Below are positions 3,574 through 62,669 of a DNA stretch of 64,000 nt, in pieces. The translations under genes were made by a program, and so were the position numbers. The stretch comes from a virus. The notes below the pieces were generated by a model that was not told the origin of the DNA, ran no database searches, and worked only from the letters and a program-made list of their open reading frames with translations. Position 1 is the first letter of the stretch. Every line of letters starts with the position of its first letter. The DNA lies in IMG/VR virus record IMGVR_UViG_3300032893_001402, positions 1 through 64,000 of that record; one strand, given 5' to 3'.

Positions 3574-5421
3574 CTAGTTATAGCTCGCCGTAACTTGCAG
3601 CAGGTGGAATCCGCTATCCGGCGTACCGTGCCCCTCGCGATACACTGCGAATCCCGCGAACCCGAGGTCATTTTTGGCCCCCCACTCGCCCCAACTGTTC
3701 CTCACGCGCAGTCCGAAGCTGCCGGGTTCGATCTCTACGCCGTCACACATACACATAACGTGGCTCATCCAATTGTAGGCGAACGCGCCGGGTCGAGTCA
3801 GCAGGCACATGGCCATATACCGCTCAAAGACGCTCCCACAATCGACCCACTTAAGGGCTTTGTGCTTCGGTCGATCCGCGATTACTTCCGGCCTGTTTTG
3901 CAGGCTCCCGTCGCAAGAATAGTTGGGCCAAAGATCGGTCGAGACTCCCCCATGTTCGGCCGCATACTTAAGCGCGTTTCCTTCCCATCCCCCGCTGTGT
4001 CCGCCGGAGATAGGAACGGCAAAGCTCGCGGCGCTGATTTGCTTATGCGGTAAATGCTGGATGCGCCGCATTATCGTCATAGCCTGCGCAGGGCCATTAG
4101 CCCAACAGTTGCCGGAAATCAAAACAGAGCCATTCCGGCGCGTAATGAGAGTTCCGTTAGCCACCGAAGCGCAGTAAACAAACCCGTTATACCTATCCCA
4201 CTCGATATGCTTCTTACGGTCGAGGCAAAGGCTGTCCGTCCTGCTGGCATAGAGTCGGTAGCGCCTGGAGGGGCGTTCGTTCGTCTCTCCGCTGGGTAGA
4301 ATGTGGGGCTTTGGATCTTCAAAGAAGACGCCGCCCCGCTTTCCGAGGCGTAAGTGAAGCTCTTGCAGATCATCGATCATCCGCTTGCTGCTGCTATAGA
4401 AAACCTTTTCCCGGTCTTCGTCGTGCGATTGATCTCCAAAATAATCAAGGAAGATTTCAATCTGGCGCGGACAAGCCCAGCGTAGAAACTCTGGAGCTTT
4501 CTTGTTGAGCGCCCCCAACTCTCGCGACGTGTAGCAAGTTTCGCGTACCCAATCTGCCAGGGCTCCCGCGTCATATCTGACCCAGACTCCAGGCCGGCTA
4601 GGGAGTTCCCGGAACCCCAAACGTGCTGCAAGAAGCTCGACAAGCTTGCGCCGTTCGGGACGGAAGCAACAGAAGCCTACCCAGTTTTTGGTATTGGCCG
4701 TGCCCCCCGCATATCCATCCGAACAAACCATCCCCAAGAGGGCAATCAAGTCATCGCCTGCGTATACCCGATCTCCAGGTACTCCGAGCTTGACGAAGTT
4801 GGTTCCTCTCCAGCTTCGTGGGGCGTGCATTAGACCTACGTACCATCCCAAATCCTTAGCGAGCTGGAATGAGTATTGATCCGAGAGAGTCTTGCGCTTT
4901 TGGTCCCATCTCCGAACAAACATGCGATGGTTCGGAGTAACACCGAAATCGAGCCGTCGGTTCGAGCTGTAAATCATTTCCCCGCGGCGGCGATAGACAT
5001 GCTTCTGTAAGCACGGTTGGAACTCCAAGACGCCATTCTCGGGGTTGACCGTCGCCAGCAAATCTAACCAGTTATAATCGGGCCACGGAATCCAACCCCT
5101 TTCGGTCAGAACTTCGGTATCTTCCGTAGCGCATTGTGGAGTTCCGTCCTGATCGTAGGGGGGGAAATCGCAATAATCGCTGACTCGCGCTTTTCTTGCG
5201 ATCTGCTCTTTGAGCATCGCCGACCATTCATTACGCGGCGGGATAGGAATGCCGGCTACTTCCCACGGAACGCTAAAGGATCGGGGGTGGGGTTCATCTC
5301 CTAGCGGCGGTCGAGCAGCCAACAGCCGCCATTCTCCCCCGGCAAAGACGCGCGTACCGTCGCCGATCAGTTCGCGAAAATTCGACTCGTCATAGACTTT
5401 TTCACCCGCGTAAAGCATCAA
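3574..5421 (-). CDS. Papain-family (C1A) cysteine peptidase interrupted by an intein at the active-site Cys
   Basis: The 615-residue precursor contains two halves of a papain-like peptidase. The N-terminal extein runs to residue 96 and ends QDGTPQ. The C-terminal extein begins CWANGPAQA at residue 439, so the intein's +1 cysteine is also the catalytic Cys of the Q-x-C-W-A type motif. The catalytic His is probably in SHVMCMC and the Asn in RNSWGEWG, the classic NSWG box. The spliced enzyme would have 273 residues, typical for C1A. It lies in a cluster of membrane proteins, so roles in lysis, entry or processing of surface proteins are possible. The unspliced form should be inactive because the Cys is masked. 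Confidence 0.85.
   Translation of the reverse strand: MMLYAGEKVYDESNFRELIGDGTRVFAGGEWRLLAARPPLGDEPHPRSFSVPWEVAGIPIPPRNEWSAMLKEQIARKARVSDYCDFPPYDQDGTPQCATEDTEVLTERGWIPWPDYNWLDLLATVNPENGVLEFQPCLQKHVYRRRGEMIYSSNRRLDFGVTPNHRMFVRRWDQKRKTLSDQYSFQLAKDLGWYVGLMHAPRSWRGTNFVKLGVPGDRVYAGDDLIALLGMVCSDGYAGGTANTKNWVGFCCFRPERRKLVELLAARLGFRELPSRPGVWVRYDAGALADWVRETCYTSRELGALNKKAPEFLRWACPRQIEIFLDYFGDQSHDEDREKVFYSSSKRMIDDLQELHLRLGKRGGVFFEDPKPHILPSGETNERPSRRYRLYASRTDSLCLDRKKHIEWDRYNGFVYCASVANGTLITRRNGSVLISGNCWANGPAQAMTIMRRIQHLPHKQISAASFAVPISGGHSGGWEGNALKYAAEHGGVSTDLWPNYSCDGSLQNRPEVIADRPKHKALKWVDCGSVFERYMAMCLLTRPGAFAYNWMSHVMCMCDGVEIEPGSFGLRVRNSWGEWGAKNDLGFAGFAVYREGHGTPDSGFHLLQVTASYN
4108..5133 (-). other. Intein with LAGLIDADG-type homing endonuclease
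   Basis: Residues 97-438 of the precursor (342 residues) form the intein. It starts CATEDTEVLTERGW (block A, nucleophile Cys97). It has TPNHR at 162-166 (block B) and two DOD endonuclease motifs, LIALLGMVCSDGY at about 225-237 and IEIFLDYFGDQ at about 321-331. It ends in VLISGN (block G) before the extein Cys. The usual penultimate His is Gly here, as in some other splicing inteins. Block F reads VYCASVANGT. Length and blocks suggest a full homing intein rather than a mini-intein. Confidence 0.9.
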
Positions 5422-7880: not shown

Positions 7881-8039
7881 TGGATCGTCCTCTAAGTTAG
7901 GAGGGGGACCGGAATCGTACACCGGCTCTACGCACTTTATCCCGGGTCGTGGCTGGCCGTGTCACAGCCCTTTGGACTCAACCCAGGTGGCGTGTGCTGC
8001 AATTACACTAGCCCCCCATAAACTCCGCTAGCACCTATC

Positions 8040-8905: not shown

Positions 8906-9297
8906 ATTACATACTCCGCAAGAGCCGATAAAGAGTGCTGAGTGATCCCCGGCAGGTCAAGTACGCTCTCCCAATATGAGCTATCCCAACACCGACAAAG
9001 CTTTCGTAGCGTTCGGCTGCAACGGCTGGCGTAAGGAACTGTGTCGAGAGCCTCATACAAAGCCATTTCGTCAGCATGACCGAGGCCTCTAGCGTCGGGC
9101 CAGAAGCCTAGTAGCGTGCTAAGGATCTTCGGAAGGTCTTTTATCTCGGCCATATTCGAGCGCAGAACCCCGATTACTAGAATCCTCCAAGGACAGCCCC
9201 CCATACCAGCTTCGATCGGATCGGCGTCAAAGTTAGGAGGAATTGTTCGCGCCTTTTCGGTTGCGATTAGCGCCGCGCTTCTTTCCAAGTATGCCAC
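8902..9297 (-). CDS. HhH-GPD DNA glycosylase-like protein
   Basis: The start is GTG at 9297, with AGGAG seven bases upstream, lying inside the end of the previous gene. The 131 residues keep the endonuclease III/MBD4 outline: PWRILVIGVLRSN near 36-48, a helical middle with FWPDARGL, and a helix-hairpin-helix VLDLPGITQHSLSALAEYV at the end. Known enzymes have a catalytic Asp soon after the hairpin (and often Lys in it); neither is obvious here and the protein stops right after the hairpin. It may be a minimal phage form, a binding-only relative, or a truncation. Confidence 0.6.
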   Translation of the reverse strand: MAYLERSAALIATEKARTIPPNFDADPIEAGMGGCPWRILVIGVLRSNMAEIKDLPKILSTLLGFWPDARGLGHADEMALYEALDTVPYASRCSRTLRKLCRCWDSSYWESVLDLPGITQHSLSALAEYVI

Positions 9298-50328: not shown

Positions 50329-51720
50329 CTAAATCATCGACCGGCTACGCAAGCTACTCGCGAAGTCGGCCGGATCGAACGAAGCGCTTTTGTCGTTAGC
50401 CCCCGGCTTGGCGCTTTCCGTAACGGAAGAGGCCGGGACACTCTTCGGCCGAGCGACAGGAATCGCCTTCTTCTGGCCCTGCGCTTGGGTCGGATCGGCA
50501 TTGGATTCCTTGACGGCGATCCAAGTGCTCACCAATTCCTCGGCAACGGCCTTGCTCTCGACAACGGCCGCCAGAGCCCTGACTTGAGACGGCTTTGGAT
50601 TACCGATGCCTTTTTCGGCCAGCATGTTGCGAGCCAGAAGCTCTTGCTTCAACCCGCGTACTTCGGCTTGCAGAGCCGCAATCCGGTCGGGTTTGGCTTT
50701 GCCCTTGCTCTCTTCCTCGGAATCCGTTGAAGCCGAATCGTTCGTATCGTCGGCCGCGCCTTCGCCTGACTGAGCCGAACCCGTCTGGCCGCTCAAGTCT
50801 TTGTGTTCCAGAGCGCTGGCCAGCAGCTCGCTGAACTGCTTGACCTTTTCTCCGTTGTCCATATCCGAGGAATAAAGCTTGCAGAGCTTTTCCGCCAGGT
50901 CGGCAAACAGCGGATCGCTACTGCACATCTCGGCCACCGGCGATTGCTCCATAACATTCGCCGCGTCGTCATTGGTTGTTGCAGTTGCGGCGTTCGGGTT
51001 TACAGCCCCCGCCGGATCGCTCTCGTATCCAGGTCCCGTACTCATGTTATTGCCTTTCATTCCGCGAGGACTCCAGGGATTAAAAAGCGCTCCCTGATTG
51101 CGCTGGTTAACGATTTGCCAGTAGTTGTCTGGATTAACGCTCTCAAAAATCCCCTGGGTCGTAGCGGGGTCCGAGACGAGATCCACCGAACGTACTACCT
51201 CGATTGCTTCAACGATAATTCGCCCGTCTTGGATGCGTTGGCGCTGTAATGCGTTGTGAGACAGGCCGAGTTTGGTGGGGAATCTTTCGCAGTTTTCGCA
51301 GACCTGTTCGGCCCGGGGATGGCTCTTGGTGAAATGCAAATCTGCATACAACCCGTCTTCGCAAACTATGACGTTACGGAGTTCTCCAAACCCATCCTCA
51401 AGTTTGCGCTCTACCGTAGCATCCGTCTTGCTGATCGGCTTGCCGGCCCCAGGATGATCGAGATAGACGCGAGCCCCTTCGTAGAGATTCTTGGCCGCTT
51501 CAAGCACGGCTAGAGGATAAATACGATTGTTGCGGCTCTTGAGGCCGATGATCTTGACCCCATGAATCACGCCGTTTTCCCGATCGACGCGCGATGCAAT
51601 GGCGCCTCTTGGGGGCGGTTGAAGATCCTCGAAGACCCAGGCGATACCGCGCTCTTGCCGGGATTGCGCTTGTCTTGCCGAGTCTGATTGCTTTGCTTGT
51701 TTTGTTGCCGTGCTCATCAT
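50329..51720 (-). CDS. Prohead protease fused to scaffold
   Basis: The ATG at 51720 shares bases with the previous stop. 463 residues. KIIGLKSRNNRIYPLAVLEA, YLDHPGAG (likely catalytic His), EDGLYADLHF, LGLSHNA (likely catalytic Ser) and VRSVDLVSDPATT are typical of phage capsid maturation proteases. From about residue 215 the protein turns acidic, then coiled-coil (IAALQAEVRGLKQELLARNM) and ends like a scaffold. It should cut itself and the capsid precursors during maturation. Confidence 0.85.
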   Translation of the reverse strand: MMSTATKQAKQSDSARQAQSRQERGIAWVFEDLQPPPRGAIASRVDRENGVIHGVKIIGLKSRNNRIYPLAVLEAAKNLYEGARVYLDHPGAGKPISKTDATVERKLEDGFGELRNVIVCEDGLYADLHFTKSHPRAEQVCENCERFPTKLGLSHNALQRQRIQDGRIIVEAIEVVRSVDLVSDPATTQGIFESVNPDNYWQIVNQRNQGALFNPWSPRGMKGNNMSTGPGYESDPAGAVNPNAATATTNDDAANVMEQSPVAEMCSSDPLFADLAEKLCKLYSSDMDNGEKVKQFSELLASALEHKDLSGQTGSAQSGEGAADDTNDSASTDSEEESKGKAKPDRIAALQAEVRGLKQELLARNMLAEKGIGNPKPSQVRALAAVVESKAVAEELVSTWIAVKESNADPTQAQGQKKAIPVARPKSVPASSVTESAKPGANDKSASFDPADFASSLRSRSMI

Positions 51721-52508
51721 CAATTTCCATAATCCGAATATTCGAGCCAACATCTGCAATTAGGATGCGCCGGAGGTCCCTCGGGGAATTCTTCGGCCCA
51801 TTCTTCGCTGGGCTTCTGATTCAGAGGTCTGCAAATAGGACAGACCTTGTCATCCTCGCTCGTATTCCAAATCCAGATACCCGTTGCGAACATCGCAAAG
51901 GGCACTTCGTCGGGAGAGATTTCCTTAGCGATAGGAATCTCATCTACAAGAATCGGCTTGCCGTAGCCCCCGAGTGGGATGGGCTTTAGAAGCCCTCGGC
52001 TAGCCGCGATTGCCGATCGCTGGCCCGCTGTATGGGCTCCCGTAATCGACGTGACGGCGAGCGTGGTAGCTCGATTAGGACCGAATAAGCGATCGAGGCC
52101 GGGCGGTGCGAGTCTTGATACGGGTGGCCGCTCGTAGGGCCTGAGCAGCAGATAGGCAGCAGCTAATTCGGCGTCATGCTGCTGTTTAAGTTTGCCGTAC
52201 GCTTCACGGTCTTTTGCCGTGGCTTCGTCGGCAATCTTTAAGGCGCGTTTTACCGCCCACTCGCGGGCGTTTCGCCGATTCGTCGCAATATCGCCATAGA
52301 GGGCATTGGCAGAAACTTCATAGACAGGGGCAAGTGAAAGGGCTAAAGCCGACGCTAGTTCGTCGCGGTTGCGCTTCCAATATTCGTCTGTGACAGTTTG
52401 ATTTGAGGCGACAAGGTCTAGTAGCCTGCGATGCTGCTTTTGTTGAAGAAGGAAAAGCGTGCCTGCAATAACCCGTTCATACGGGTAACGGTTAGCAAGG
52501 TCCGGCAC
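51720..52508 (-). CDS. MuF-like minor head protein
   Basis: 262 residues, helical for the first 180. The last part, NTSEDDKVCPICRPLNQK followed by PPAHPNCRCWLEY, is the Cys/His end of the Mu F (gp7-like) head morphogenesis family. It probably sits inside the head near the portal. It shares its stop with the protease start. Confidence 0.85.
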   Translation of the reverse strand: MPDLANRYPYERVIAGTLFLLQQKQHRRLLDLVASNQTVTDEYWKRNRDELASALALSLAPVYEVSANALYGDIATNRRNAREWAVKRALKIADEATAKDREAYGKLKQQHDAELAAAYLLLRPYERPPVSRLAPPGLDRLFGPNRATTLAVTSITGAHTAGQRSAIAASRGLLKPIPLGGYGKPILVDEIPIAKEISPDEVPFAMFATGIWIWNTSEDDKVCPICRPLNQKPSEEWAEEFPEGPPAHPNCRCWLEYSDYGN

Positions 52509-52526: not shown

Positions 52527-52557
52527 TTACAAATCTGGTCACGGTTTCTGGTATAAT
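52527..52557 (+). promoter_or_regulatory. Promoter for the antisense metallohydrolase gene
   Basis: TATAAT at 52552-52557 is a perfect -10. TTACAA at 52527-52532 is a fair -35 with a 19-base gap. The start codon ATG at 52565 lies 8 bases after the -10, so transcription would start at or very near the ATG, giving a leaderless mRNA. Confidence 0.55.
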
Positions 52558-52564
52558 GCGTGCC

Positions 52565-53161
52565 ATGGGCATTCCAGATTTTCCAGGCTGGCAATTGCTT
52601 GGGGCTTTCCCGGACGGCGAGTCCGACGATGTCGGAAGCTGGCTGCTAGCGGACGGCCGCGAAGCCATGCTCTTGGAAGTCCCACCCGGCCTGACTCCAA
52701 GCTACGTGCTTTTTGCTCTTGAGCGCGCCAATGCGAAGCTGTGCTTCGTGACAGCATCGCATGACCACGAAGACCACCTTGACGCGGACGCCTGGCGTGC
52801 CTTGGAAGTGGCGTTCCCACGAACGAGATTTATCCATCCACAAGAGGTTGATAGATTATTCACGCGCGGCGACTTGAGGCTAACCATCGGAAGCGAGCCT
52901 CTTTGGCTCGTCAAAGCGCCCAAGCATTCGCGCACGGACATAGTGACGGTGTTTCGAGGTGTCGCCATGACCGGCGACATCGAACTAGGAACGCTGGACT
53001 CAGTCAACCGCGAAGTCCCCAAAAAAACCAAAGCCAAGAGCATGGAATGGCTGGCGGCCTTCCAAGATCGTACGGGATACCTCATCCATTTCATTGTCAG
53101 CGCCCACCTGAACGATTTTCGATTGTCAGTTGATTGGCCTGCCCTCTTTCGCGTTTCGTAA
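52565..53161 (+). CDS. Metallo-beta-lactamase-fold hydrolase
   Basis: 198 residues. SHDHEDHLD at 65-73 is the H-x-H-x-D-H zinc site (His66, His68, Asp70, His71). AMTGDIELG provides a later Asp, and FIVSAHLNDF a last His. The gene runs against all nearby virion genes, with its own promoter, and fits the idea of a cargo gene (moron). Substrate is unknown: RNA, nucleotides, signals and small esters are all possible for this fold. Its end overlaps the next gene by 65 bases. Confidence 0.8.
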   Translation: MGIPDFPGWQLLGAFPDGESDDVGSWLLADGREAMLLEVPPGLTPSYVLFALERANAKLCFVTASHDHEDHLDADAWRALEVAFPRTRFIHPQEVDRLFTRGDLRLTIGSEPLWLVKAPKHSRTDIVTVFRGVAMTGDIELGTLDSVNREVPKKTKAKSMEWLAAFQDRTGYLIHFIVSAHLNDFRLSVDWPALFRVS

Positions 53162-55025
53162 GCATGCTGCGAATAAACCGCACATGCGCCGGATCTTGGC
53201 CGGTAAGGTGCGATACGTAAGAATCGATGGTGAATGGATTGTCCGTCAAATATCCGGACTGGCCACTGTCGTTGGACGGATTGGCCTCGACAACGCGATA
53301 GCCCTTGTCGGTTTTCATCACGTCCGGCGCATAAATCTGCCCTTGCCGCTCTGAGGCCGGAAGGGCATTGATTGCATCGACGGCTGCTTTGGCCATGGCC
53401 CTGGTGTCATCATTCTCGAATACCACCGGCAGCGGCGCATTCTTGATCCAAGTTGCGTGCGGTACAATCGAGGCGACTCCGTTTTGGGTGGTGATATGCA
53501 CCCTGCCCTCTCCCGGAGCTATTGTTTTGCCGGCCGCACGATCGGCGTCCGATACGCCTACCGCCGCAAAAGCTGGCTGGGCCATGAATTCCTTTCCGCC
53601 GCCAGGAAGCTCCGCGCCATGTTCGTTTTGTGCCGCCTCGGCCGCACGATCTGCTAACTCGCGCGCGTGTCCGAAAATCGTGTTCGCGTAGCTCCGGCTG
53701 CCAAACTTGTACTGCGTGCCGTCGGAACCTTTCAGGCCAGCAAGCCTGCCATCCTTGTCGCGGTAGAGTGATAGGCCGTACTGCGACAATTCCTTGTCGG
53801 CGTGGTGGATCGTGGATTGCGCGTCACGTTCGATTTGTTCGGCGTACTGCGGGAAAAAGATCCCGTAACCGGCAGCAGCTTCGTTGCCGTACGCTTTTAC
53901 AATCCACCGACCCGCCCCATATTTATCGTCCAGCTTCTTGCGCACATCGGGCGAGAGATGCGTAACTTCGTGGCCGGCGATCTTGTTGATGTCTTCGCTG
54001 GATTCGAGCCCTGGCAGCTTTTTGGCTTCGTCCAATTTGTTGACAAGGTTGGGTTCGGCAGATTGGAAGTCGCCAGGCTTATCGGCCTCGTAACCGCGGA
54101 ACTCTTTGGGCTCGGATGAAATGCTGCGCTTCCCCTCGATGCGCCTGCTCGACCTGTTGAGCGTAATCCCGGTGCGCTCCAAATACTTTTGAGCGAATTC
54201 AGCGGCCGGTAAACCGCCAGTGAAATCCTCGGGTGCCGCTGCACCTTGATACTGCACGTCCTGCTTGCCGCCGCCCCTACTCTCCCCAAGAGCCTCAAGA
54301 GCGGCCTCAACGCCCACATCGTTGACATGCGACTTCACCTTGTCGAGCCAGGCGGCTTGTTCGTGTTGGCCGTTTTTGCGGAACAAGCTCGCCACCCGAT
54401 CAAGCTTTTCGTTTACTCGATGGATTTCGGCGGGTAGAGCCTTAGGAGTTCCTGAACGTGCGGGCTGACGCTCACCCTCCCCGCCTTGACTAGCTGCTGC
54501 ATCGTGGGATGCGCCAGACGCTCGCGCCACTGGTCCGCCGTCTTGCGGAGTGTCGCTTCGGCCGCTTGGACCTCCTTTTCCTCCTCGCTTGTCAGTGTCA
54601 CTTTTGCCACCTCCTAGCTTCGATTTCAGCAGGTCTTTAAGGGCTCGAAACGCATGGCCAAGATGCTTGATACTGACGCCGCGCATGGATGGCGGAATAC
54701 TTCCGCCGACGATCTTCCCATCGCGATCCAGCAGAACTTTGTGGCCACCCCCTTCATCGTCGCCATGAATCGTAATCCAGTGCTCGCCAGATGATTCAAG
54801 CGCTGCGCCGTCAAATGACTCGGCTATCGCAGCTTCGCCATCGTCCGACCCAAGTTCTTTCGGATCGAATCCAAGGATGGCGGTCACGTCTTCCGGTGTT
54901 TCCGGCAACTCTTCGTCGTCTGGATCTTCGTCCACGACGGAGTGCAGCCCTGCCCTCCAGTCAATTGGCGCGCTTTTGGCATCGCCAAAATGAACATCGG
55001 CTGGCAGATCAAAAACGCGGCTCAT
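53097..55025 (-). CDS. Virion-region protein with ATP-grasp-like C-terminal domain
   Basis: 642 residues. The N-terminal 130 carry HWITIHGDDEGGGHKVLLDR and GKIVGGSIPPSM, a small module I know from phage head proteins. A Gly/Ser-rich linker with Lys follows (about 135-200). The C-terminal half looks like ATP-grasp: RWIVKAYGNEAAAGYG near 378 (Lys and glycine loop) and YRVVEANPS at 576-584, where Glu580 and Asn582 would bind Mg. ATP-grasp enzymes join carboxylates to amines or thiols. It is coupled to the portal gene by a 4-base overlap. The ATP-grasp call is by eye only. Confidence 0.55.
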   Translation of the reverse strand: MSRVFDLPADVHFGDAKSAPIDWRAGLHSVVDEDPDDEELPETPEDVTAILGFDPKELGSDDGEAAIAESFDGAALESSGEHWITIHGDDEGGGHKVLLDRDGKIVGGSIPPSMRGVSIKHLGHAFRALKDLLKSKLGGGKSDTDKRGGKGGPSGRSDTPQDGGPVARASGASHDAAASQGGEGERQPARSGTPKALPAEIHRVNEKLDRVASLFRKNGQHEQAAWLDKVKSHVNDVGVEAALEALGESRGGGKQDVQYQGAAAPEDFTGGLPAAEFAQKYLERTGITLNRSSRRIEGKRSISSEPKEFRGYEADKPGDFQSAEPNLVNKLDEAKKLPGLESSEDINKIAGHEVTHLSPDVRKKLDDKYGAGRWIVKAYGNEAAAGYGIFFPQYAEQIERDAQSTIHHADKELSQYGLSLYRDKDGRLAGLKGSDGTQYKFGSRSYANTIFGHARELADRAAEAAQNEHGAELPGGGKEFMAQPAFAAVGVSDADRAAGKTIAPGEGRVHITTQNGVASIVPHATWIKNAPLPVVFENDDTRAMAKAAVDAINALPASERQGQIYAPDVMKTDKGYRVVEANPSNDSGQSGYLTDNPFTIDSYVSHLTGQDPAHVRFIRSMLTKRERGQANQLTIENRSGGR

Positions 55026-57922
55026 GTGCTCTGACTCCAGGTGGCAAACACCGTCGGATCGATGTAGCTCTGTAGCGCCACGGTTGGCGTATTGCCCAGC
55101 GCCTTGCTAACGACCGTGGCCACCCGCTTCACCGTCTGCTTGTATTCCTTAGGATTCTTGCAGCAAGCGCCAACCTTTTTGATTTCATCGATCGCAAGCG
55201 ACGTGCCTCGCAGCGTCCGAAAATCCTTGGGCTTGAAACTGCCGCCGTCAAGCGTGTGTGCATATTTGCGAAGCTCGGAATCGCTGACGCTGAACAAGCG
55301 ACCGTCGCCAACGACTTGCTTCCGCTCGCGGAGCATCGAAGCAACTTTTGGGTCCGTGACAGGCAGGTCAAGCTTGACCCCCTTCTTCCCGGTAAATTGC
55401 AGCCGCACGCCATCTGGCGTCTCGATTACGTGGCTGCCGCGCAATGTCGTCGCTCCGTATGCCTGGGCCTTGGCTTGCGTGTCACGCTCGCTGCCAGGCC
55501 GAAGGCCCATCGACTGAATCAACGCCAAGACGGTTGCAGCCTCGCGCGTTTTTGGATCCCCGCTTTCCATGTCGCGTGAGATTTCAGCTGCAATCCTTTT
55601 TTGCTTCTCCATCAGTTCGCTGATCCGAGCAAACTTGATAGCCGCCTGGCGTGTGGCGTGCGTATCGCTATAGATCGATTGCCGCCGCCCCTTCTCGTCA
55701 TATCCGGTCGCCAGAAGATCGCCTTTAGGATCGGGGTTGATCTTCACCCCCGTCCAGGCCGGTGGAATCTTCAAGGCCGCGATATGCGCCGGCAGAGCCT
55801 TCCCGCCAACATGCCGCTGCGCGTCTTTGAGGTGCTTGCCCTCGGCATCCTTGGGATGGTCCGACGCATCGAGCGTTGGTGTCGATTTTGATGAACCAGA
55901 CCCTCCCTTTGAAACAAACTGCCCGCCGCCAGGCCCCTTGCCCTTGTGTTCGTGCCCACTAGCGTCCTCGGCTTCTAGGACGCACCGCAAGCTCTCCAGG
56001 GCATTGCTGACGGCCTCTTGGATTGATTCCCCAGGATCTTCGCCCGTAACCCCTTGTAGGCCTTGCGGAGGGCCCTGAGGAGGGCTTTGGCCGTCCGGTG
56101 GATTACCACCATTGGGGGGAGTGTCATCATTAGGCTTCCCCCCCGCTTGAACTATTTTAGCAATTGGGGGGAGTCCTACTGCCTTGCGCTTTTCTTGCTG
56201 GGTGTCGTAATCCAGCTCCTCTCGCCCCGACCATTCCTGAGGAGAAAGAATCCCGGCGTCCGAGAGGGTTTTATTGCGCGCCGTGGCCTTATCTTCGTCG
56301 CGTACCCTGACACTCGGGGGAATGACTGTGATTTCCAGTACAGCGCGAATAATTCCCCAAGGTAGAATATCCGGGTTGCCGAACTCTCCACATTGCCAGG
56401 CGAACCAAAGAACGCGCAGCAAGAGTCTCTGCCAGCTCTCCACATGCAGACCTTGACGAGACTCGCATTCGTTAACAAAAGGATCGCCTGCTACAAGCAG
56501 GGACGCAAAGTTATTGTTGCTCGCGTCTCCCGTGAGCATGTTTTCGGGCATCGACCAGACTTGCGCCGCCGATCTCAGGCAGGTATCGCGGATGGCGATA
56601 AATTCGTTGGCGAACTCTCCGACCGGAGCGGGCTTGAATTGCTTTGCGCCGTTGGTTTGAAGGATCGTAGACGAACGATAACGAAAGCTCGTCTCGTTCG
56701 GATTGTTGCGGCTAGGCCTGGCGCCGGGTTGAAGGTTATTCGAGGAAACAACGTCGCTTTGGAGCACGCCAGGCGCATACTCTTCAATCCAAGCGATGGC
56801 CGATTGAACGCTACCGACTCGGCCGATATTGAGTAGGAGCTTATGGGCAAGGTCAATGGCAATCTGCGAGCAGAATAGATCGCTGATCCCCCGCTTGACA
56901 TTGGCATCCGTATTGCGCTTTATGTGCTCGCACCAAGCCGCCGCACCTTCATCCGGCGGAAGAATCGGATTCACTCCTCCGGGGATATAGCTCCAACTCG
57001 TGTCGGCGCTGTGCCATTGGAAGTAATAGCCGTGGACTCCGGCAATATCGTCCTGAGGGCAATGCACTCCGAATGTCCAACTTGATCGGGGCATGCCGTT
57101 CTCTAGCGGCTCGATGCCCAACCAGTTGTCCAGGTGTAAAGTGTTATAGGGCTGTGTGTTCTGCTCTGGTTCGGCAAAGCGGAGAGAGCAACGGCCCTCG
57201 CCGATATGCCATAAGGTCAAGTAACTCTCGCCGTCTCTTCCTAGCCGCAACTCGCTTTCACGCTGCATTTCGCTAGCGCGATTCTCGCCACAAAAATCCT
57301 CGATAATCGATTGCGCTCTGTTGACGAGCTTTGTGCCAGTCTCGGAATCGATAAGCCCCCGAGATGAGCGCTTTAGACTCACCTGGGGCTTGAATCCGCG
57401 AGGCCCGACAACATAGTTCTGAAGCTTGGCAAAAGCCCCCTTTGCCGTATCGTTATAAGCCGCTAGAACCCGCGCCATGCCTCGGATTAAGTGCAGGTCG
57501 GCCTCTGTATAAAAGATCGGCCGATTGCGACCCTCTTGGCGATCGCTGCGAGTCGTGGGGTAGGTGCCCCAACCGTAGTATCCGTAGCCCTTATCGGCCG
57601 TGAGATACTGCCAGATATTGACGACTTCGGAGCCCTCGTTGTCGCACACGCTTTCGAGGGCTCGTTCTATCGAAGCCCCGCCCTCCAGGACATTAGCCAG
57701 GCCGAGTCTGGAATCTGGATCGACGGGAGCTGTCCCCGTCATTTGACGGCGCATATTCTCCCGTACCAGACGATTCGACTCTTTGACCGCTTCGGCGCTC
57801 TCGCCTAGGCTCTGAGAGAGTAGATCGCGCTGAGCTGCAATTTTGATTAGCAGAGCGTTCTTACGTTCGATCGCTTCGAGCCGAGATAACTCGGGATCGT
57901 GGGTAGTAGCTTGGTCGATCAA
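55022..57922 (-). CDS. Portal protein fused to a type IB DNA topoisomerase domain
   Basis: 966 residues, about twice a portal. Residues 1-575 look like a portal: NDTAKGAFAKLQNYVVGP, the SSNNLQPG region, and QVWSMPENMLTGDASNNNFA. A Pro/Gly-rich linker (about 590-625) and GPGGGQF at 663-669 follow. Residues 700-966 are a TopIB domain: IPPAWTGVKINPDPKG at 719-734, GLRPGSE (Arg808), GKKG (Lys846/847), DFRTLRGT (Arg902), LGNTP (Asn944) and SYIDP (Tyr953, nucleophile). Asn in place of His is usual in bacterial TopIB. TopIB relaxes supercoils by a 3'-phosphotyrosine. The fusion would place it at the DNA entry vertex. Confidence 0.85.
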   Translation of the reverse strand: MIDQATTHDPELSRLEAIERKNALLIKIAAQRDLLSQSLGESAEAVKESNRLVRENMRRQMTGTAPVDPDSRLGLANVLEGGASIERALESVCDNEGSEVVNIWQYLTADKGYGYYGWGTYPTTRSDRQEGRNRPIFYTEADLHLIRGMARVLAAYNDTAKGAFAKLQNYVVGPRGFKPQVSLKRSSRGLIDSETGTKLVNRAQSIIEDFCGENRASEMQRESELRLGRDGESYLTLWHIGEGRCSLRFAEPEQNTQPYNTLHLDNWLGIEPLENGMPRSSWTFGVHCPQDDIAGVHGYYFQWHSADTSWSYIPGGVNPILPPDEGAAAWCEHIKRNTDANVKRGISDLFCSQIAIDLAHKLLLNIGRVGSVQSAIAWIEEYAPGVLQSDVVSSNNLQPGARPSRNNPNETSFRYRSSTILQTNGAKQFKPAPVGEFANEFIAIRDTCLRSAAQVWSMPENMLTGDASNNNFASLLVAGDPFVNECESRQGLHVESWQRLLLRVLWFAWQCGEFGNPDILPWGIIRAVLEITVIPPSVRVRDEDKATARNKTLSDAGILSPQEWSGREELDYDTQQEKRKAVGLPPIAKIVQAGGKPNDDTPPNGGNPPDGQSPPQGPPQGLQGVTGEDPGESIQEAVSNALESLRCVLEAEDASGHEHKGKGPGGGQFVSKGGSGSSKSTPTLDASDHPKDAEGKHLKDAQRHVGGKALPAHIAALKIPPAWTGVKINPDPKGDLLATGYDEKGRRQSIYSDTHATRQAAIKFARISELMEKQKRIAAEISRDMESGDPKTREAATVLALIQSMGLRPGSERDTQAKAQAYGATTLRGSHVIETPDGVRLQFTGKKGVKLDLPVTDPKVASMLRERKQVVGDGRLFSVSDSELRKYAHTLDGGSFKPKDFRTLRGTSLAIDEIKKVGACCKNPKEYKQTVKRVATVVSKALGNTPTVALQSYIDPTVFATWSQST

Positions 57923-59143: not shown

Positions 59144-59397
59144 CGCCGAACCCCGTTTCGTTCGACCAGGGCAAAGCGTGTGGGCCACCAGCCGTATTCG
59201 TCCTTGTCGAGAAACAGGTAGCCGCAGTCAACGTCCGTTACGGTGTATTGCTCTCCCTCGTTGACCTCATGTTCCGACGTGCCGCCACCTTCGCCGGGCA
59301 GACATTCCACAACGTCGCCGACTTCTGGCATTTCGCCGGTGCTGTAGTTCCCTTCGTTACTTACGTACTGTCCGCAAACGATAACTGGCCGAGCCAT
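59140..59397 (-). CDS. Hypothetical passenger protein
   Basis: 85 residues. MARPVIVCGQYVSNEGNYST is followed by an acidic strand-rich middle (VGDVVECLPGEGG, EQYTVTDVDCGYLFL) and WWPTRFALV. The plan is of a small beta-barrel-like domain. It starts one base after the stop of the transposase remnant. Function unknown. Confidence 0.55.
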   Translation of the reverse strand: MARPVIVCGQYVSNEGNYSTGEMPEVGDVVECLPGEGGGTSEHEVNEGEQYTVTDVDCGYLFLDKDEYGWWPTRFALVERNGVRR

Positions 59398-59938
59398 TTA
59401 CTTGATCCCCATAAAGCCCGCGTCCCCGGTAGCCGTGAGCACGCGGTAAGTGATGCGCTTGCCGACCACCTTGGCCAGCAAGCGCTGAAATCGAACCCCG
59501 TCGGTGCATATTGCGGGCCTTCCCGCCGATGAACGTTTCGTCTACCTCGACTTCGCCGGCCAGCTTGTGGAAGCTCGTGGTCTGCATCGCCAAGCGGATT
59601 CGGTGGAGCATAAACCACGCGCTCTTCTGGGTTATCCCCAGGCCGCGAGCCATTTCATAGCTGCTGATCCCGTTTTTGGCGTTGGCGATACACCAGACGG
59701 CGACCATCCAACTGGACAACGGCAGCGGGCTATCCTCGAAAATCGTGCCGACTTTGCAAGAGAACTGCTTACGGCAGCCCTTGGCGTTGCAGCGGAGCAT
59801 GGAACGGGTAGCGATCGTGCCGACCTTTTCGCTACCGCACTGAGGGCAGACGATCGTGCCATCGGGCCATTTGGCTCCAATCATCGCCTTGAAGCACGCG
59901 GCCGGATCGGAAAAGTATTTGACGGCTTCGACCATGGC
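59398..59938 (-). pseudogene. IS1595-type transposase, internally deleted and frameshifted
   Basis: The ATG at 59938 opens MVEAVKYFSDPAACFKAMIG. A zinc ribbon (CPQCG, then CNAKGC), the helix-turn-helix ISSYEMARGLGITQKSAWFM and the catalytic segment VEVDETFIGGKARN are intact. Right after, a +1 frame gives RFQRLLAKVVGKRITYRVLT and ends at 59398. In full enzymes that last piece is the true C-terminus, after roughly 100 more residues that hold the second catalytic Asp and others. So an internal part is lost and the join shifts frame. Confidence 0.8.
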
Positions 59939-60171
59939 TTTCTCAAGGTGTCGGTCATGGCAAATCCTCAAAATCCAGTCATTGCGTGCGAATGTCCCCA
60001 CTGGAACAAAGCCCAAAACAAAAGAGCAAATCCTGGAATGACTATGGCGATTTGCAAGCAGAGCCAATGCCAGTCTTCGTCCATCATGTTCATTCTCCAA
60101 AAGCCTGCCGGCGGCTTTCTGCTTGTGCAGGCGGGGTGATTAGGCCCGCACCGCCGGCAGGGGAGATCGTG

Positions 60172-61190: not shown

Positions 61191-62669
61191 TCACAAACTA
61201 GGGATCTGCTCCGTCACGCTTCCCCCATCGTTATTGTTACGATCGGCGAGGAAATTGATGCTTCTTAGTGCCATCTCCATCGCATCGGGTCCATCGTCGT
61301 GCAATCCGAGAGGAAAATTCTTCAATTGATCGACCAGAATTCTAGTCCCTGGAGTATCGCGAAAACTGACGGCGCGTTGTCTAAACCATGGATCAAGTCT
61401 GCGGATTCGATTCTCTTTCGCCACGCTGTTATTGACCAAGAGCCCTTCACAATCGAGGATTCCCGCGGCTTTTAATTGGCGAACGAACTCAGCCCCTAAC
61501 AGGTCTTGCCAGGCGTTTCCTTCCGTAGCCAAAGCCTGAGGCTTGAAGCGGCGAACCAGCTCGACACCGTCGGCAACGATCTTTCCTGGCGATCTGCGAG
61601 CTAAGTCGGCTTCGACCCAGAGGTGGCCCGTTTCGTTCCAGGCCATTAGAATAAACGCGCTATAATCGCTATGGCGCGTACGACCCTTGCTAGGATCAAG
61701 GGCAATCACTCGCAAGGGCATATCCCGCGGCCAATCCCTGAACCAGAGGTCGTCTCCCTCGAAGTATTCGGGCGGCCACTCGACGCCAATACCTTGCGTC
61801 GGATTCTGCTGGTAAAGAGCCTGCCACCAGTAAAGGGGCATGCCGTTGCGGATCGTTTCTAATCCGCGCCGCAATAATCTGCCGTCCGGCGAGCGCAGAT
61901 CGTGCAGGGGATAGCGGTCGGGCCAAAGGGCTTCTCCGAATACTCTCCCGAGGCTGTCGGATTCCGTGGCTATAGCCGGGAAGGACAGGACTCCCCAAGG
62001 TCGATCGCTTTCGGCTCGGAGCCTTCCCGCCAGGTCTTCCCGGTGCCAACGGGTCATGTTGACAATCACGCTTCCACCGGGCTCCAGCCGCGTCATCGCC
62101 GTGGAATGAAACCACTCCCAGCACGTCTCGCGCTTTACTTCGCTGGCGGCTTCCTGGGCATTCTTGATCGGATCATCGATAATCAGCAGATGAGCCCCTT
62201 TCCCCGTCAAGGGACCGCCGATACCTGCCGTTTCCATCCCCCCTTCGTGTCCGATCAAATTCCATTCATTTGCAGCAAAGCTCCGATTGTCAATTGCTAA
62301 GACTTCGCCATGGTACTGCGCGAATAGTCTAGGGTCGAGCTGGTTGAACACATTGCGGGATAGTCTGCCATAGCGGCGCGCCTGGCGAGCTTCGTAGCTG
62401 ACGTAGATTACTCGCCGATCTGGCCAACGTCCGAGATACCAGCAAGGAAGATACTGGCCGAGATACCAGCTCTTGCCATGCCGCGGGGGCATCTCGCAGA
62501 TTAACCCAGGCAACCTACCTGTGACTAGATCCGTTACGCCCCGGTCCAATCTCAACAGATGCTTCGCCGGCTGCCAACGCCCCTGGCTCGCATACCTGGC
62601 AAACGTCGCCGGAGTCAGCGTGTACCTTAAAGAGTCGATCCCGCTCGAATTCGAGGTAGTTCGGATCAT
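61191..62669 (-). CDS. Terminase large subunit
   Basis: 492 residues. Walker A-like PPRHGKS at 61-67, Walker B HLLIIDDP near 165, the coupling motif VNMTRWHRED, and a nuclease domain starting RVIALDPSKG near 328 with later acidic residues (LATEGNAW, HDDGPDAME) are all present. It cuts and pumps DNA into the head through the portal. Its start lies 155 bases inside the small-subunit gene. Confidence 0.92.
   Translation of the reverse strand: MIRTTSNSSGIDSLRYTLTPATFARYASQGRWQPAKHLLRLDRGVTDLVTGRLPGLICEMPPRHGKSWYLGQYLPCWYLGRWPDRRVIYVSYEARQARRYGRLSRNVFNQLDPRLFAQYHGEVLAIDNRSFAANEWNLIGHEGGMETAGIGGPLTGKGAHLLIIDDPIKNAQEAASEVKRETCWEWFHSTAMTRLEPGGSVIVNMTRWHREDLAGRLRAESDRPWGVLSFPAIATESDSLGRVFGEALWPDRYPLHDLRSPDGRLLRRGLETIRNGMPLYWWQALYQQNPTQGIGVEWPPEYFEGDDLWFRDWPRDMPLRVIALDPSKGRTRHSDYSAFILMAWNETGHLWVEADLARRSPGKIVADGVELVRRFKPQALATEGNAWQDLLGAEFVRQLKAAGILDCEGLLVNNSVAKENRIRRLDPWFRQRAVSFRDTPGTRILVDQLKNFPLGLHDDGPDAMEMALRSINFLADRNNNDGGSVTEQIPSL

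Follow-up and report, generated by a model that had tools for sequence, protein, structure and literature searches.

In the window, the whole 64-kb stretch of a linear IMG/VR record analysed here, we found a single open reading frame on the minus strand (55022-57922, 966 aa) that joins a phage portal, a linker, and a type IB topoisomerase (TopIB). We somewhat favor the view that the TopIB is virion cargo, which would be loaded by any available head protein and would act on the DNA at ejection, with a small acidic module encoded downstream (LGFDP) as its dedicated partner. Both the delivery and the activity of the enzyme are inferred.

The portal part is of lambda type and spans residues 139-603 (56114-57508, minus strand). 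Over those residues, the PHROG_21 portal profile matched clearly (E 1.2e-23), and Phage_portal_2 (PF05136) matched residues 141-490 with an E-value of 8e-8 and 32.2 bits, 0.7 bits below the curated cut-off of 32.9. The gene also sits where a lambda-family portal is expected, in a head cluster near the terminase and MuF. This portal is 31% identical to that of L003, a contig with a related TopIB. It gave no match against 50,697 phage records and none against viral contigs as a single-sequence query; combined with L003 as a profile, it matched only L003's own contig and L154 among viral contigs. In the AlphaFold2 model of the whole fusion protein, the portal part was poorly modelled because of the few related portals, and Foldseek with this model, of low confidence in the portal part, gave no portal match.

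The frame runs without interruption from a TTG start at 57922 to a TGA stop at 55022, and the start overlaps, in TTGA (57919-57922), with the stop of the gene that precedes it. Between the portal and the TopIB lies a Pro/Gly-rich linker with GKGPGGGQFVSKGGSGSS (residues 590-706, 55805-56155, minus strand). AlphaFold2 gave mostly pLDDT < 50 from about residue 604 to 706, indicating disorder, and the relatives have linkers of the same kind. We rejected a separately translated TopIB inside the frame: the only in-frame candidates were TTG645, with poor spacing, and TTG717, which is already within the domain.

Judged by sequence and model, the C-terminal portion is a complete type IB topoisomerase with predicted activity. 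The bacterial TopIB N-terminal domain (PF21338, Top1B_N_bact, E 1.7e-9) covers residues 711-742 (55697-55792, minus strand). The catalytic core (PF01028, Topoisom_I, E 5.6e-22) covers residues 761-949 (55076-55642, minus strand) and contains R808, K846, R902, and N944; the Tyr953 codon (55064-55066, minus strand) is just past the end of the PF01028 match. The Arg-Lys-Arg-His/Asn-Tyr set is found in order within a TopIB fold. The closest PDB sequence match to the fusion was the Deinococcus radiodurans TopIB (2f4q, E 2.3e-20), and the TopIB part of the AlphaFold2 model had mostly pLDDT 87-98. With Foldseek, the top matches were 3m4a, 2f4q, and variola 3igc, and only TopIB structures reached significant E-values. 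R808, K846, R902, and Y953 were each identical in 88 of 88 aligned TopIB domains, which is what selection on catalysis would produce, and N944 was kept in 87, with His in the other one.

The first-pass annotation had described one frame joining a portal-like N-terminus to a TopIB with all its catalytic residues. PHROG_21, Pfam, the PDB search, and AlphaFold bear out the joined frame, the profile searches place each end in its family (the portal end with the Pfam match just below cut-off), and the catalytic set is intact. Its catalytic "Lys846/847" holds for K846, which is invariant, and not for K847, which was present in only 80 of the 88 domains.

When we scanned viral contigs, the window TopIB domain retrieved 15 loci, and the TopIB alignment retrieved the best 80 of 129 relatives. 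Across 84,980 genomes of bacterial and archaeal species, only 5 TopIB loci were retrieved, all on MAG contigs. The 50,697 phage records held no close member of this family, only TopIBs 25-31% identical to the window domain, from jumbo phages (Lu11, HRDY3, and Rhizobium phages) and one Bacteroides phage (BS162P1). Since the relatives are in viral contigs, with few in cellular genomes and only distant ones in phage records, we take the family to be an environmental phage clade. We counted about 99 distinct TopIBs, window included, among the contigs examined.

Several head proteins carry these TopIBs. Forty of the 99 are fused to a portal (from four Pfam families) or to MuF: 28 to PF06381-type portals, three to PF05136-type (window, L003, and L022), two to PF04860-type, one to a PF06074-type, and six to MuF, with carriers called by profiles built in this analysis and Pfam assigned for representatives. 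Portals are the commonest recognised carrier (34/99). L059 has its TopIB on a DUF2213 (prohead-protease) domain, and the DUF2213 N-terminus of L059 also aligns with L133 and L147. The remaining TopIBs are joined to NUDIX, ADP-ribosyltransferase, or unidentified domains, or are nearly alone; about a third of the family occurs free or behind a short leader, with no recognised head-protein fusion. A portal, MuF, or terminase was located within 8 kb of the TopIB in 43 of the 49 loci having flanks on both sides.

Across the TopIB tree, we counted at least 43 switches of carrier label, compared with 54 for shuffled labels; this count is approximate, coming from a quick tree with many weak forks, and some "solo" labels are contigs cut at the 5' end. 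It is lower than for the shuffles but far higher than one origin per carrier, which argues for a cargo that is kept while its carrier changes.

Some of these loci present further features. In L009 (5619-8771), an intein-like insert (PF14890) splits the MuF gene ahead of the TopIB, and in L036 (4875-8786) the portal has intein-like matches to unrelated enzyme families. L012 and L014 encode long chains in which NUDIX, a stretch that looks HipA/kinase-like by eye, and the TopIB are set apart by repeated HPRxxDGKFGSGGG linkers.

The gene after the fusion begins with the acidic LGFDP module (DVHFG...DWR...DEDPDDEEL.ETP.DV.AILGFDP; 54843-55004, minus strand). The start of this gene overlaps the fusion stop (ATGA, 55022-55025, minus strand), with GGAG upstream. 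The gene encodes a 642-aa protein (53097-55025, minus strand) whose remainder has no family match and which may be a second cargo protein. The module is ~45 aa long, with about 14 acidic and three basic residues, and its conserved positions are FG, DWR, DD, TP, and LGFDP. It had no match in the 50,697 phage records and no family match.

Of the 93 cases with enough sequence, 87 have LGFDP downstream of the TopIB in the same orientation, at a median distance of 30 nt. Among 78 separate pairs, the likely LGFDP start was at -4 from the TopIB stop in 28, at -8 in 12, at -14 in 10, and at -11 in 8, and a GGAG-type site often lies within the final TopIB codons. The module is often a free small protein. 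It also shares one ORF with the TopIB (L059, L062, L078, L130, L133, L143, and L147; weakly L049) and can open proteins with DUF2213, MuF, or NUDIX domains. In a module-only scan, a TopIB was present in 57 of 63 LGFDP loci, many of them from TopIB-set contigs and hence not independent. We left out one alignment that combined TopIB with free LGFDP rows, as its short rows were misplaced. In the model of the L130 TopIB-LGFDP protein, the helix TPRSVIDMLGFDP had pLDDT about 79-88. That LGFDP might be a general head gene with no tie to TopIB was ruled out by the reciprocal scan and by the absence of the module from the cassette-free L154.

Further head genes in the window are a MuF-like head protein (51720-52508, minus strand; PF04233 E 2.4e-6, just below cut-off; PHROG head morphogenesis) and the terminase large subunit (61191-62669, minus strand; PHROG_38 E 2e-87). 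A probable prohead protease or scaffold (50329-51759, minus strand) is a guess from its position and H/S motifs; it matched no named family, and comparison with DUF2213 gave no support. Between terminase and portal there is an apparently truncated IS1595/ISXO2-type transposase piece (59357-60100, minus strand). On the opposite strand, an ORF located between the genes for the LGFDP protein and MuF (52556-53161, plus strand) has a metallo-beta-lactamase-like HDHEDH by eye and no Pfam match. Elsewhere, a 615-aa ORF (3574-5421, minus strand) weakly matches a thymidylate-synthase PHROG along 90 residues and perhaps contains an intein.

The cassette of TopIB and LGFDP is mobile. L154 is a sister of L003, with 77% nucleotide identity in the portal, and has neither TopIB nor LGFDP; its portal has a short C-terminal tail (LSPVDQGAIVGAM...RNYP). 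L003 has a copy of this L154-type portal tail ~2.1 kb downstream, past the TopIB and the LGFDP gene. In addition, a linker-coding 95-nt direct repeat, 95% identical, is found in L003 before the TopIB (7890-7984) and after LGFDP (9097-9191), so that the linkers, from this one locus, look like possible recombination points. The window has no such repeat. In four contigs (L091, L092, L094, and L144), the TopIB or its core is gone in frame and LGFDP is kept as a portal tail; these are either natural deletions or assembly artefacts. Because they keep LGFDP without the TopIB, either the enzyme would be dispensable in some phages or LGFDP would have an additional role.

The recognised carriers are all parts of the prohead: as established for these families in general, MuF and prohead proteases are inside it, and portal C-termini face inwards. 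Since the carriers share this membership and the TopIB stays conserved from one carrier to the next, the simplest account has the phage requiring a TopIB inside its particle. The flexible linker would tether the TopIB to the portal C-terminus, inside the head, and in relatives to other portals, MuF, or a prohead protease. Thus tethered, the enzyme would be built into the prohead next to the DNA and be present in the virion. It would act on the genome within the particle, or just after ejection following linker cleavage, relaxing the torsion of the incoming DNA. Portals are thought to remain in the virion, so injection of a portal-borne TopIB would require cleavage of the linker. The translationally coupled acidic LGFDP would be the dedicated partner, probably as a DNA-mimic brake or a docking tag: a brake would hold the TopIB off the DNA until packaging or ejection, and a tag would place it.

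The NUDIX and ADP-ribosyltransferase domains co-carried with TopIBs of this family are in line with cargo, since both have been proposed as injected head cargo (PMC9503650). Counting against cargo are the third or so of relatives with no recognised head-protein fusion and the four contigs with LGFDP but no TopIB, besides the linker cleavage that injection would require. More tentatively, and with some doubt on our side, TopIB and LGFDP might form a new portable two-component virion-loading system. In such a system, the TopIB could be placed on any inward-facing head protein, the co-translated acidic LGFDP (a DNA-mimic brake and/or docking tag) could itself ride head proteins, and exchange would occur by recombination at Gly-rich linkers.

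Relief of torsion in packaging, at the portal channel, was one of the uses suggested in the first-pass annotation. A TopIB that remains on the portal and relaxes the DNA being packaged or exiting would be right at the DNA channel, and portals are the commonest recognised carrier. However, the MuF, protease, NUDIX-type, and nearly free TopIBs of the same clade need no channel position, and the carrier changed repeatedly. With four portal families, MuF, DUF2213, and about a third of the TopIBs free or on a short leader, the suggestion is weakened; such torsion relief is possible but does not account for the other carriers, and we consider it unlikely. Another suggested use, a virion-loaded or co-injected enzyme, gained support because the carrier pattern fits loading into the head on any carrier. 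The nearly universal LGFDP partner just downstream had been overlooked. An even less likely reading makes the TopIB a host-directed effector or toxin that upsets chromosome supercoiling, with LGFDP inhibiting it or conferring immunity, on the model of MuF polymorphic toxins. An enzyme followed by a small, strongly acidic, overlapping gene would suit it, and so would a C-terminal domain exchangeable on head proteins and the co-carried ADP-ribosyltransferase domains. LGFDP, however, is itself fused to TopIB or head proteins and is kept where the TopIB is deleted, unlike a free immunity protein, and TopIB by itself is not known as a potent toxin.

TopIBs and tyrosine recombinases share a fold, and weak recombinase matches ranked behind the TopIBs in Foldseek, which could suggest a strand-transfer enzyme acting on the genome ends after ejection (circularisation, end joining, or recombination). 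We regard this as very improbable: profiles, PDB search, and Foldseek all place the domain nearer to TopIB than to a tyrosine recombinase or integrase, with all sequence and structure matches favoring TopIB by many orders of magnitude, and no end structure or site emerged. As for an error of assembly or read-through from one gene into its neighbor, the window is a single metagenomic contig and no close relative of its portal was found. Nevertheless, such fusions turn up, on different portals, in dozens of independent contigs, which rules this explanation out for the family and leaves it extremely improbable for the window; moreover, the linker contains neither a stop nor a plausible internal start, and composition is even across the join.

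Head-fused and polyvalent phage proteins that are presumed to be injected are already known (PMC5512222, PMC9503650). They have enzymatic domains on the portal, MuF, or capsid serine peptidase, or among head genes, as found here for the TopIB, and include the NUDIX and ADP-ribosyltransferase cargo that also accompanies this family. In contrast, neither paper yielded a TopIB as cargo, the text consulted describes no LGFDP partner, and the jumbo-phage work (PMC7824862) does not mention TopIB as head cargo. The first-pass annotation knew of no portal-TopIB fusion, and we likewise found neither such a fusion nor TopIB cargo in the open-access literature searched, where absence is no proof. Thus, the class of architecture is known, and neither the 50,697 phage records nor the literature searched showed TopIB as its cargo or LGFDP.

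MuF polymorphic toxins (PMC5576092) likewise place an exchangeable C-terminal domain on a head protein and have a small partner gene next in line. They differ in having a MuF N-terminal domain on the effector protein, whereas the window carrier is a portal, the carriers of this family are not MuF only, the enzyme is a topoisomerase, and its partner may also ride on head proteins as a fusion. The jumbo phages and BS162P1 encode TopIBs too, as free genes; those of Lu11 and similar jumbo phages have been described with DNA-metabolism functions (PMC7824862), and the neighbor in BS162P1 is not LGFDP. The D. radiodurans TopIB (2f4q/3m4a) shares domain order, fold, and catalytic residues, including Asn replacing His, but is a free enzyme and about 26% identical. 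In vaccinia, TopIB is packaged into the virion (PMC6336343). The poxvirus enzymes have the same fold, but they belong to eukaryotic viruses, have no portal fusion, and with about 20% identity are related at the TopIB-family level only, so the parallel may be drawn for function only.

If the cargo reading is true, tailed-phage particles would contain a topology enzyme, as those of poxviruses do, and an active-site mutant would allow direct tests of the torsional state of phage DNA, both packaged and just ejected. The LGFDP module would be a small candidate regulator of a TopIB. With no close member in the 50,697 phage records, work on isolates would not have revealed this TopIB family.
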